Assembly: GCA_003220675.1 (NCBI GenBank)
Contig: QHTD01000063.1
Span: 1-56,340 of the forward strand
Direction: 5' to 3'
Length of the DNA stretch: 56,340 bases
Origin: Candidatus Rokuibacteriota bacterium
GTDB lineage: Bacteria > Methylomirabilota > Methylomirabilia > Rokubacteriales > CSP1-6
The notes below the pieces were generated by a model. It saw only the letters and a list, made by a program, of their open reading frames with translations, was not told the DNA's origin and made no database searches. Shown in pieces: positions 15,250-22,465 of the stretch; position 1 is the stretch's first letter; the number at the start of each line of letters is the position of its first letter. The position numbers and the translations under genes are program-made.

Positions 15250-15966
15250 TCACGGGTGAGCCTCCGCGTCCGCGAGAATCGTGCACCGAGGGTGCAGGCG
15301 GAGCGCTGAGGCCGGCACCGCCGGATCGACGGCGCCGTCGAGGAGCCGTGCGAGCGGCGCGCGCTTGGCGGAGCCGCTGACGAGCACGACGACCTCGCGG
15401 GCGCCACGGATCGTCCCGACGCCGAGCGTCACCGCCCGGTCGCTGACCGGGCCCTGGACGACCTCGTCGGTGAGGATGTAGCTCACGGTCCCAGGGGTGA
15501 GGCGCACGAGGCGCGTCGGCGAATCGAACTCGCTCCCCGGCTCGTTCGAGGCGATGTGCGCGTTCGGCCCGAGCCCCATCATGACGAGGTCGAGGCCGCC
15601 CGCGCGCTTGAGCGCCTCCTCGTACTCGCGGCACATCGCCTCGAGGTCGGGCGCGCCGACGTCGAACGGGTGGCAGCGCTCGGTCGGCACGCCCGCCCAG
15701 GACAGGAATTCGCTCCGCACCTGTCGCCAGAAGTACCCGTCGGCGGGCGCGGGCGGGCAGAGCTCGTCGATAGAGAAGACGTGCATGCGACCGTAGTCGA
15801 CCGGCTCTCGCGCCTGCCAGTCGCGCAAGCGCGCGTACATGCGTCGCGGCGTGCGCCCCGCCGGCACCGCCATGGCAAGGTCGGGCCTGGCGGTGAGGCG
15901 CTCGCGGAACAGTGTCGCCGCCGCTTCGGCGAGCTCCGCCGCATCGCGGAAGACGACGACCTTCAT
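15250..15966 (-). CDS. Glucosamine-6-phosphate deaminase-like protein (NagB/6PGL fold)
   Basis: 238 residues of the NagB/RpiA/6-phosphogluconolactonase fold. The closest signature is NagB: the sugar-phosphate loop VPAGRTPRRMY, FSIDEL, then GLGPNAHIASNEPGSEF-like residues (NagB normally NGH, here NAH), a TRLVRLT stretch, and TLGVGTIRGAREVVVLVSG with the GxGTI loop. NagB converts glucosamine-6-phosphate to fructose-6-phosphate and ammonia. The NGH to NAH change and slightly short length leave the exact substrate open. It starts 1 nt after the TAG that ends the upstream Sec-containing DsrE-like gene, supporting read-through of that gene. Confidence 0.78.
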   Translation of the reverse strand: MKVVVFRDAAELAEAAATLFRERLTARPDLAMAVPAGRTPRRMYARLRDWQAREPVDYGRMHVFSIDELCPPAPADGYFWRQVRSEFLSWAGVPTERCHPFDVGAPDLEAMCREYEEALKRAGGLDLVMMGLGPNAHIASNEPGSEFDSPTRLVRLTPGTVSYILTDEVVQGPVSDRAVTLGVGTIRGAREVVVLVSGSAKRAPLARLLDGAVDPAVPASALRLHPRCTILADAEAHP

Positions 15967-15967
15967 C

Positions 15968-16330
15968 CTAGGTCGAGACGACTTTGTCGGCCGCCGCCAC
16001 CTTCTCGGCGAAGATCTTCGGCGTGACGAACTGCGCGTTCATGGACTTGAGGTCCTGCTCCGTGACCCCACGGGCCACCGAGCAGCGGCCTCAGACCCAG
16101 ACGGGCACTCGGTGCTCGACGACCTTGCGGATCATCTCGGTGAGGGGTGGCATGCCGACCGGTTGCACGGACACCGCGACGGTCTCCTTCACGAGATAGG
16201 CGGCCTCGCCGGCGATGAAGATCTCCGGCTGGTGGCCCGCCTCGACCGCGCCGAGCGCGAAGTTGAAGGGGAAGCCGGCGCGCGTCGGGTCGTCGGTGCC
16301 CGAAGTTCCCACGTACAGGATCCTGGCCAT
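15968..16330 (-). CDS. DsrE-family selenoprotein (in-frame TGA read as selenocysteine)
   Basis: The frame starts at ATG 16330 with a strong GGAAGGAGG upstream and reads 79 residues of a DsrE/DsrF-like small redox or sulfur-relay protein (MARILYVGTSGTDDPTRAGF...). It then meets TGA at 16093-16091 after VPVWV. Reading TGA as Sec continues the same frame with GRCSVARGVTEQDLKSMNAQ and on to TAG at 15970-15968, giving 120 residues with Sec80 in a U-G-R-C motif. DsrE homologues carry Cys at this spot (VxCGxCxxARG style). A hairpin just after the TGA fits a bacterial SECIS, and the next gene begins 1 nt past the TAG. An ordinary annotation would truncate it at residue 79. The substrate is unknown; a peroxiredoxin gene lies immediately upstream. 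Confidence 0.85.
16055..16085 (-). promoter_or_regulatory. Candidate bacterial SECIS hairpin
   Basis: On the minus strand, starting 5 nt after the TGA: CTGCTC, a G, GTGGCCC, loop GTG, GGGTCAC, a G, GAGCAG. The outer 6 bp and inner 7 bp (one G-T wobble) are separated by a single G-G mismatch. The apical loop starts 20 nt after the TGA, within the range known for SelB-recognised bacterial SECIS elements, and contains G and U. The hairpin lies in coding sequence, as is normal in bacteria. Confidence 0.75.
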
Positions 16331-16372
16331 GTCCTGCCTCCTTCCCGCGTGCGTCGCGGCAGCGGCGCGATC

Positions 16373-16903
16373 CTAGCCCGCGGCCGCCTTCGCGGCGGCG
16401 AGCGCCGCGTTGTAGTTCGGCTCGGACCCGATCTCCTTGACGTACTCGACGTGCTTGACCGTGCCGTCCTTGCCGACGACGAACACGGCGCGGGCGTTGA
16501 GGCCGGCGAGCGGCCCGTCCTTGATCGCCACGCCGTAGCGCTGCCCGAAGGCGCGGTCGCGGAAGTCGGACAGGGTCTTCACGCTGCTGACCCCGGCGGC
16601 GCCGCACCAACGCTTCTGGGCGAACGGCAGGTCCATGCTGATCGTCCACACCTCGATCCCGGGCCCGAGCTTGCCCGCCTCCTGGTTGAACCGCCGCGTC
16701 TCGGTGTCGCACACGGGGGTGTCGAGCGACGGCACGGAGCTCAGGAGGAGCACCTTGCCCTTCGCGTCGCTCAGGCGCACGGCCTGGAGGCTCGTGTCCA
16801 CCGCGGTGACATCGGGTGCGGGCTGCCCGGGCTTGATCTCCGGGCCGACGAGGGTGAGGGGGGTGCCCTTGAAGGTGACGACGCCCTTGCGTTCCTCAGC
16901 CAT
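16373..16903 (-). CDS. tpx: Thiol peroxidase (Tpx-type peroxiredoxin)
   Basis: 176 residues of an atypical 2-Cys peroxiredoxin reducing hydrogen and lipid peroxides. VPSLDTPVCDTETRRFN contains the peroxidatic Cys65. Cys100 in KRWCGAAGV is the resolving Cys, 35 residues away, as in E. coli Tpx. N-terminal VTFKGTPLTLVG and SDFRDRAFGQRYGV are also Tpx blocks. GGAGGG lies just upstream of ATG 16903. It heads the minus-strand operon with the Sec-containing DsrE-like protein and NagB-like gene, suggesting a redox theme, and is divergent from tupA. Confidence 0.93.
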   Translation of the reverse strand: MAEERKGVVTFKGTPLTLVGPEIKPGQPAPDVTAVDTSLQAVRLSDAKGKVLLLSSVPSLDTPVCDTETRRFNQEAGKLGPGIEVWTISMDLPFAQKRWCGAAGVSSVKTLSDFRDRAFGQRYGVAIKDGPLAGLNARAVFVVGKDGTVKHVEYVKEIGSEPNYNAALAAAKAAAG

Positions 16904-16979: not shown

Positions 16980-17000
16980 GCAGCACGGGAGAGAGCCGTG

Positions 17001-17831
17001 ATGCTCGGGTACCTGCTGATCGCCGCCCTCGTGGTGTCGCTCGCCCCGCCGGCGGGCGCGCAGTCGAGCGTCGTCATCCTGTCCACGACGACGTCCACGC
17101 AGGACTCCGGGCTCCTCGACGTGCTGGTGCCGATCTTCGAGCGCCGGACGGGCTACACGGTCAAGACGATCTCGGTCGGCACGGGCCAGGCGCTCGCGCT
17201 GGCCGCGCGTGGTGAGGCGGACGTGACGCTCTGCCACGCGCCGTCGCTGGAGACGCAGTACCTCGCCGACGGCAGGATGACGAACCGCCGGCTCGTCATG
17301 TACAACGACTTTGTGATCGTCGGGCCCGAAGCTGACCCCGCGAGGATCGCCGGCGAGCGGAGCGTGGTCGCGGCGCTCAGGCGGATCGCGGGTGCGGGAG
17401 CTCGGTTCGTCTCGCGCGGCGACAAGTCCGGGACCCACGCGCTCGAGCTCGCGCTCTGGAAGCAGGCGGGTGTCGTGCCCGCCGCGCCCTGGTACATCGA
17501 GTCGGGCCAGGGCATGGGCGCGACGCTCGGCCTCGCCGACGACCGCCGCGCGTACACGTTGACCGACCGCGCGACGCGGCTCGCCTTCGGCAAGCGCGTC
17601 GCGCTCAGGATCATGGTCGAGGGCGACCGGGCGCTGCTCAACATCTACTCGGTGATGGAGGTCAATCCCGCGAACGGGCCCCACGTCAACGCCGCGGGCG
17701 GCAAGGCGTTCGCCGACTTCATGGTCTCGCCCGAGGTCCAGCGGATCATCAGGACCTTCGGTGTCGACCGGTACGGCCAGCCGCTGTTCGTCCCGATCGC
17801 CGGCAAGCGGGAGGGAGACGTGACGTCATGA
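17001..17831 (+). CDS. tupA: Tungstate ABC transporter, periplasmic binding protein
   Basis: 276 residues. Signal peptide MLGYLLIAALVVSLAPPAGAQ, then the TupA hallmark STTTSTQDSGLLDVLVPIFE, followed by VGTGQALALAARGEADV, FVSRGDKSGTHALEL and NPANGPHVNAAGGKAFADFM. TupA binds tungstate with very high affinity for tungsto-enzymes. ATG 17001 is preceded by GGGAGAGAG; a GTG lies one codon upstream. It overlaps tupB by ATGA. The expected ATPase gene does not follow tupB but appears ~5.7 kb away after modC. Confidence 0.92.
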   Translation: MLGYLLIAALVVSLAPPAGAQSSVVILSTTTSTQDSGLLDVLVPIFERRTGYTVKTISVGTGQALALAARGEADVTLCHAPSLETQYLADGRMTNRRLVMYNDFVIVGPEADPARIAGERSVVAALRRIAGAGARFVSRGDKSGTHALELALWKQAGVVPAAPWYIESGQGMGATLGLADDRRAYTLTDRATRLAFGKRVALRIMVEGDRALLNIYSVMEVNPANGPHVNAAGGKAFADFMVSPEVQRIIRTFGVDRYGQPLFVPIAGKREGDVTS

Positions 17832-18523
17832 CCCTGCTGCTCGACGGGGTGCGACAGGCGCTCGGGTTGCTCGTGGAGGGCGACGGCGAGATCTGGTCGA
17901 TCCTCTGGCTCTCGCTCGAGGTCTCGGGGAGCGCGACGCTGATCTCGTTGCTGATCGGCATTCCCGCCGGGACGGCGCTCGCCCTCACGCGCTTCCCGGG
18001 GCGCGGGCTCGTCGTGAGCGCCGTGAACTCGGGGATGGGGCTGCCGCCGGTCGTCGTCGGCCTCTTCGTCACGATCGTGCTCTGGCGGAGCGGGCCGCTG
18101 GGCAGCCTCGAGATTCTCTACACGCCCGCGGCGATCGTCGTGGCGCAGGCCGTCATTGCCTCGCCGATCGTCACCGGGATCACGCTCGCCGCCGTCCAGC
18201 AGGTGCCGCGGGAGTTCCGCCTCCAGCTCCTGGCGCTCGGCGCGTCGCGCGTCCAGATGGTCTGGACGGTGCTCCGCGAGGCGCGGCTACCGATGCTGGC
18301 TGCCGTCATGGCGGGGTTTGGTGGCGTCATCTCCGAGATCGGCGCCTCGATGATGGTGGGCGGCAACATCAAAGGGCAGACGCGCACGCTCACGACCGCG
18401 ATGGTGCTCGAGACCAGCAAGGGGGACTTTGACGTGGCGATCGCGCTCTCGCTCCTCCTGCTGGCCCTCGTCTTCCTCGTCAACTGGGCGCTCACCTCGA
18501 TCCAGCAGCGGCGGGCCGGGTAG
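17828..18523 (+). CDS. tupB: Tungstate ABC transporter permease
   Basis: 231 residues with about five membrane helices and the inner-membrane permease EAA-like loop (LGASRVQMVWTVLREARLPML) that contacts the ATPase. FGGVISEIGASMMVGGNIKGQTRTLTTAMVLETSKGDF is typical of TupB. The start overlaps tupA's stop (ATGA at 17828-17831). The gene is followed by a 48-nt gap and then one copy of a 20-bp direct repeat, not by tupC. Confidence 0.92.
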   Translation: MTLLLDGVRQALGLLVEGDGEIWSILWLSLEVSGSATLISLLIGIPAGTALALTRFPGRGLVVSAVNSGMGLPPVVVGLFVTIVLWRSGPLGSLEILYTPAAIVVAQAVIASPIVTGITLAAVQQVPREFRLQLLALGASRVQMVWTVLREARLPMLAAVMAGFGGVISEIGASMMVGGNIKGQTRTLTTAMVLETSKGDFDVAIALSLLLLALVFLVNWALTSIQQRRAG

Positions 18524-21473: not shown

Positions 21474-21697
21474 CCTCCTTCCCCCTTGTCCCGAGCCAAG
21501 ATCGCGTCCCCCGGAGCCAGAGTCAAGCCGCCAGGAGGAGGAGTGCCCCTCGGCGGCGCTCAGACCGGTGCCGAGCCGTCGGCGACCCTGCCCTCAACGA
21601 CGATTCTTCGCGGTCGTCCATTCCGCTGGTGCAGCCAGCCACGATCTTCCTGCTCGGCCAGCGTGCGGTGACGGTTCGCCTGTAAGATGAGGGCGTG

Positions 21698-22465
21698 ATG
21701 CGGTGCCCGCTGCTCCCGGCAGTCGCGCTCGCGTGGCTCGCCCTCGGGTCCGGCCCCGCGCGCGCCGCGGAGCCTCCGCCCCTGACTGTCTTCGCCGCCG
21801 CTGACCTCGTGTTCGCGCTCAAGGAGATCGTGCCGCGCTTCGAGAAGGCGCTCGGCGTGCGGGTCACGCTGGTGCTCGGCTCGACGGGCCAGCTCGCCCA
21901 GCAGATCGAGCACGGCGGCCCCGCCGACGTCTTCTTCGCCGCCGACCAGGCCTTCGTGGATCGCCTCGTGGCAGAGCGCGTGCTCCTCGGCGAGACGCGG
22001 GCGCTCTACGCTCAGGGCCGGATCGTCCTCGCCACCGCGAGAGCGATCGGCTGGAAGCTCACGGAGCTGCGGGACCTGACCGGTCCGAACGTCCGGCACG
22101 TGGCGATCGCCAATCCGGCCCACGCGCCGTACGGCAAGGCGGCCGAGGAGGCCTTGAGGAAGGCGGGCGTCTGGGACGCGGTCAGGCCCAAGCTCGTCTA
22201 CGGCGAGAACATCCGGCACACGCTCCAGTTCCTCCAGACGGGCGCCGCAGAGGCCGGGATGGTGGCATTGTCGGTCGCGAACGTCCCCGAGATCGACTGG
22301 GTGCCGATCGACCCGCGCCTGCACGCGCCGCTCAATCAGGCGACCGCGGTCATGCGCCGCAGTCCCCGGCCCGAGCTGGGGCTCGCGTTCATCCAGTTCG
22401 TGAACGGGCCGGAGGGGCGCCCGATCATGAAGCGCTACGGGTTCCTCTTGCCCGGCGAGTTCTGA
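21698..22465 (+). CDS. modA: Molybdate ABC transporter, periplasmic binding protein
   Basis: 255 residues. Signal peptide of ~24 residues ending GPARAA, then [23 protein letters not shown] and [26 protein letters not shown], the ModA oxyanion-binding blocks, and later [15 protein letters not shown] and [21 protein letters not shown]. It delivers molybdate to ModBC. ATG 21698 is preferred over the adjacent GTG because GAGGG at 21689-21693 then has a 4-nt spacer. modB begins 7 nt after its stop. Confidence 0.93.

Follow-up and report, generated by a model that had tools for sequence, protein, structure and literature searches.

A predicted DsrE-like selenoprotein encoded across an in-frame TGA in a Candidatus Rokubacteria genome

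Results

A gene on the minus strand of the window (the whole 56,340-nt stretch of DNA analysed here) very probably codes for a DsrE/YchN-superfamily selenoprotein, in which the TGA at codon 80 would be decoded as selenocysteine (Sec), as judged from comparative sequence evidence. The reading frame starts at ATG 16330–16328 and is open to this TGA, yielding a standard open reading frame of 79 amino acids. Past the TGA, the same frame remains open to TAG 15970–15968, giving a read-through product of 120 amino acids with a UxxC motif (U80-G-R-C83) inside its DsrE domain. The ATG of the downstream gene follows at 15966, leaving a gap of 1 nt (Table 1). An earlier note on this DNA had placed the start codon, the in-frame TGA, the final stop, the gap and the gene span correctly, and its expectations of a 79-residue truncated call by standard gene callers and of the TGA falling at residue 80 of 120 in a UxxC motif were likewise borne out. 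All TGA triplets in the six frames of the 56-kb window were screened for a redox-type motif (UxxC/CxxU type) and for coding-like codon-position GC on both sides; the TGA at 16093 was the only one to pass.

Table 1. Coordinates of the dsrE-like gene, its elements and its neighbours in the window.
Feature	Position	Strand	Basis
Thiol peroxidase (Tpx) gene, Cys type, upstream	16373..16903	-	annotation, neighbourhood comparison
Shine-Dalgarno sequence AAGGAGG (strong), ahead of ATG 16330	16337..16343	-	sequence
dsrE-like gene, 120 codons + TAG, codon 80 TGA predicted to be read as Sec	15968..16330	-	Pfam, orthologues, dN/dS, fold
In-frame TGA, predicted Sec80 codon of the UGRC motif	16091..16093	-	codon 80 is TGA in 16/16 orthologues
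SECIS-type hairpin immediately past the TGA, CTC-G-GTGGCCC (GTG loop) GGGTCAC-G-GAG	16058..16082	-	folding, covariation
Glucosamine-6-phosphate isomerase/6-phosphogluconolactonase-type (NagB-like) gene, downstream	15250..15966	-	starts 1 nt after dsrE stop

The read-through product was matched over the whole domain by the Pfam profile PF02635 (DsrE), which covers residues 3–118 with 59 bits (E 6e-16; curated cut-off 22.7 bits), compared with 28.2 bits for the 79-residue fragment. The DsrE-like identity proposed in the earlier note thus extends beyond the TGA. The AlphaFold model of the read-through product has a pLDDT of 96.3, and its closest folds in the PDB are YchN, TusD and DsrE. In this model, U80 forms the end of strand 77–80, ahead of helix 81–87, and the predicted fold requires two strands of the tail (99–102 and 116–119), both of which lie past the TGA. 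The junction between strand 4 and the helix is the site of the reactive Cys in proteins of the DsrE/TusD/YchN type. In a profile search, U80 was aligned with a Cys in 3mc3, 3pnx and E. coli YchN (1jx7), and C83 with the second Cys of YchN; the likeness to TusD is a fold match with no residue alignment behind it. The residue-80 column is also occupied by Cys in CxxC and CxxS relatives from the same phylum. The proposal that Sec replaces the redox Cys of the family therefore holds for the alignment column, whereas its redox role stands as a prediction. The window protein gave no NCBIfam TusD equivalog match, and NCBIfam contains no equivalog for its subfamily.

Genes for DsrF/DsrH or TusC/TusB partners were not found adjoining dsrE, whose neighbours are the Tpx gene and the NagB-like gene. 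The gene neighbours of dsrE vary between genera. The NagB-like gene follows dsrE in three genera, with its GTG start and the stop of dsrE sharing four bases (GTGA) in L006 and L009. This kept coupling fits with translation reaching the far stop and leaves the function unfixed. An apparent dsrE-nagB fusion in L008 (a 495-aa open frame) was rejected, because NagB is matched in a different frame. Genes for TupA/TupB-like tungstate and ModA-like molybdate uptake are located near dsrE in the window (16998–18523 and 21695–22465), and a similar-looking set is found beside dsrE in genome G048 (L037:5-3068). In a sister dsrE subfamily of the UGAC type, a TusA/YedF-like gene lies directly upstream (L017:1160-1414; also L016 and L068), a hint of a sulfur or selenium relay in that subfamily.

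The most likely work of the window protein, to which we give roughly even credence, would be thiol/selenol chemistry in intracellular sulfur handling. DsrE and TusD are known to carry sulfur on the Cys equivalent to U80 in the DsrEFH/TusBCD relay, and the fold search itself does not separate a sulfur relay from a thiol reductase. A somewhat less probable function, also compatible with a selenoprotein, is that of a thiol reductant in peroxide defence that serves the adjacent Tpx instead of a sulfur relay. In the window and in L006, the Tpx gene immediately precedes dsrE, and UxxC is a redox motif in many selenoproteins (PMC1088965). However, this arrangement was seen only in the window and that one other genus, Tpx not being found beside dsrE in three relatives of the same genus and in most other orthologues, and sulfur-relay proteins are among the best fold matches.

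Close orthologues with 73–92% identity to the window protein were identified in 16 Methylomirabilota (Rokubacteria) genomes, and codon 80 is TGA in every one of them; the nearest public records to the window genome are Rokubacteria MAGs. The matching codon is TGA in all other Sec paralogues as well. The sequence 3' of the TGA is conserved: for 14 of the 16 close orthologues, dN/dS was 0.20 for codons 1–79 and 0.19 for codons 81–119, or 0.12 past the TGA when the hairpin region was left out. The tail that the earlier note had called plausibly conserved thus aligns and is under purifying selection equal to that on the part before the TGA. A tree of 54 relatives comprised 28 UxxC, 17 UxxU, seven CxxC and two CxxS sequences; the clade of the window protein is UxxC throughout, and no Cys orthologue was seen within it. 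Second dsrE copies with broken reading frames were observed at L058:1122-1480 (G012:C94) and L062 (G018:C128), with the match split across two frames or the tail altered; these are either decayed copies or assembly errors.

Folding of the 45 bases from the TGA onwards yielded a hairpin with a GTGGCCC/GGGTCAC stem, a GTG loop and a flanking CTC/GAG extension. The loop starts at nucleotide 23, counting from the T of the TGA. Among 26 distinct sequences, pair 17:31 is UA in 14, AU in five, GC in five and CG in two, and unpaired in none. The covariation score of the hairpin was 0.274, as against 0.117 (sd 0.017) for shuffled alignments, a comparison that is not a strict test because the sequences are related to each other, and 0.115 or less when the hairpin was slid. 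Four types of pair at 17:31 are nonetheless hard to obtain without a stem. G23 in the apical loop is invariant in all 26 sequences. Numbered from the U of the UGA, the loop bases G23/U24 and U17 coincide with those of E. coli fdhF, in which they are key SECIS bases; unlike in the fdhF hairpin, U17 is paired here and not bulged. The case for the hairpin rests on covariation, since the folding energy was only modestly low relative to synonymous recodings (mean z -1.5, window z -1.9, with some paralogues not low). No Rfam family reached its gathering score anywhere in the window, and only chance-level matches were obtained over the dsrE gene. The hairpin is, on this evidence, the putative SECIS element expected in bacteria just past the TGA.

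The presence of selA, selB, selC and selD, proposed in the earlier note as a check, was examined in the genome to which the window belongs. The selA and selB genes adjoin each other on contig C392, and selD is located on contig C120 (L074; G000:C120:28738-29679, minus strand), where it contains an in-frame TGA with a hairpin 3' of it; the SelD of this genome is itself a predicted selenoprotein. Only the 3' half of selC is present, at a contig edge. A scan for tRNA-Sec in this genome gave a best score of 42.9 bits, under the cut-off, and ARAGORN detected no tRNA-Sec on C392. The apparent lack of selC was overturned by alignment with sister genomes: C392 begins within the gene, with the last 43 bases of tRNA-Sec, which are identical to those of three sister species in which selC sits at the same place, ahead of selA-selB. 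Across the family, selC exceeded the Rfam cut-off in 46 of 57 genomes. In G020, G025 and G041, a Sec-type dsrE is present, and selB and selC were not found in the assemblies. This gap is most simply explained by a sel locus missing from incomplete or mixed MAGs; as the sel genes lie together, a single assembly gap may remove them all.

Three alternatives to Sec were weighed. It is very unlikely that the TGA acts as a true stop, leaving either a pseudogene or a working DsrE fragment of 79 aa ahead of a left-over tail. Standard gene calling does give 79 residues, but dN/dS is the same in tail and body, the TGA is kept at codon 80 across 16 genomes, the predicted fold needs both tail strands, the hairpin is conserved and sel genes are present. 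Less probable still is decoding of the TGA as an ordinary amino acid, through a code change or Trp/near-cognate read-through. Nothing specific speaks for it, and column 80 matches Cys, not Trp, in a genome with Sec machinery and a covarying SECIS-type hairpin; furthermore, TGA is the final stop of the same gene in L002, L006, L009 and L011, so TGA still serves as a stop in these genomes and the overall code is unchanged. A TGC or TGT turned into TGA by sequencing or assembly error, conceivable in a fragmented MAG of 437 contigs, is refuted by the identical TGA in paralogues and in independent assemblies of many species. Of the three findings that the earlier note had named as counting against its reading, none was observed.

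In addition, two in-frame TGAs spaced nine bases apart (UGGU or UTGU) were found at 17 loci of the DsrE family, namely L094:2350-2712 (minus strand; closed genome G084) and 16 more, such as L021, L023, L065, L091, L106 and L100. In the tree of 54 relatives, 15 of the 17 UxxU sequences form one group (SH-aLRT 100). The occurrence of this group in the closed genome makes an assembly error unlikely. Members with UGGU share one clear hairpin, which starts just past the second TGA.

Discussion

The window gene belongs to a kind of protein that has been catalogued since 2005, and it adds another member to that kind without being unprecedented. DsrE-like selenoproteins with a UxxC motif were reported from the Sargasso Sea in 2005 (PMC1088965), from Desulfovibrio vulgaris in 2006 (PMC1794560) and, as DsrE 1/2, from the GOS data (PMC2398784); the earlier note was right that metagenomic surveys contain such proteins. 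With the catalogued DsrE-like selenoproteins (PF02635), to which it is likened by description, the window protein has in common the DsrE domain, one Sec in UxxC, a SECIS just downstream and a bacterial host with selABCD. It differs in the host phylum, and Methylomirabilota/Rokubacteria are not named as a host in the literature found on this family.

Comparison with characterized proteins is limited to about 14–20% identity for YchN, DsrE and TusD. E. coli YchN (1jx7) has the same fold, with its CxxC aligned to the UxxC of the window protein and Cys in place of Sec. The sulfur-relay subunits DsrE and TusD (2hy5, 2d1p) also share the fold and have Cys for Sec, but act in DsrEFH/TusBCD complexes, whereas the window gene lacks such adjoining partner genes. 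YedF, which combines TusA and DsrE domains with a CGxC motif (PMC5322559), has in common the DsrE domain, a CGxC-type motif and a link to selenium use; the window protein lacks the TusA domain and has Sec, and a YedF/TusA-like gene adjoins dsrE in the L016/L017 subfamily.

In the proposed mechanism, SelB carrying Sec-tRNA would bind the hairpin just past the UGA, and Sec would be inserted at residue 80 in place of the end of translation. Sec80 would then be a reactive selenolate that makes up the UGRC pair with Cys83 and could accept sulfane sulfur or attack a disulfide or persulfide, with Cys83 acting as the resolving thiol via a selenenylsulfide. Computation supports the fold, the motif, the conservation and the decoding signal; the chemistry and the partners of Sec80 and Cys83 are inferred.

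It appears somewhat probable that the Methylomirabilota hold an expanded superfamily of DsrE selenoproteins varying in Sec number, including a conserved two-Sec (UGGU) branch that would be decoded beside a single hairpin and whose active site could form a diselenide and serve sulfur or selenium chemistry. In an inventory from 2026, DsrE-like proteins are listed solely as UxxC with one Sec (PMC13188914), and the two-Sec form is not in its table. Gene callers truncate proteins of this kind at the active site, and the catalytic part is consequently missing from databases. For the soil bacterium Candidatus Rokubacteria, the gene adds a small protein of the sulfur-handling type to the picture of selenoprotein-rich Methylomirabilota, for which that inventory cites a MAG with 63 predicted selenoproteins (PMC13188914). 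With one-Sec, two-Sec and Cys relatives in a single phylum, the contribution of Sec to DsrE chemistry becomes testable, as does the decoding of two UGAs nine bases apart beside one hairpin.
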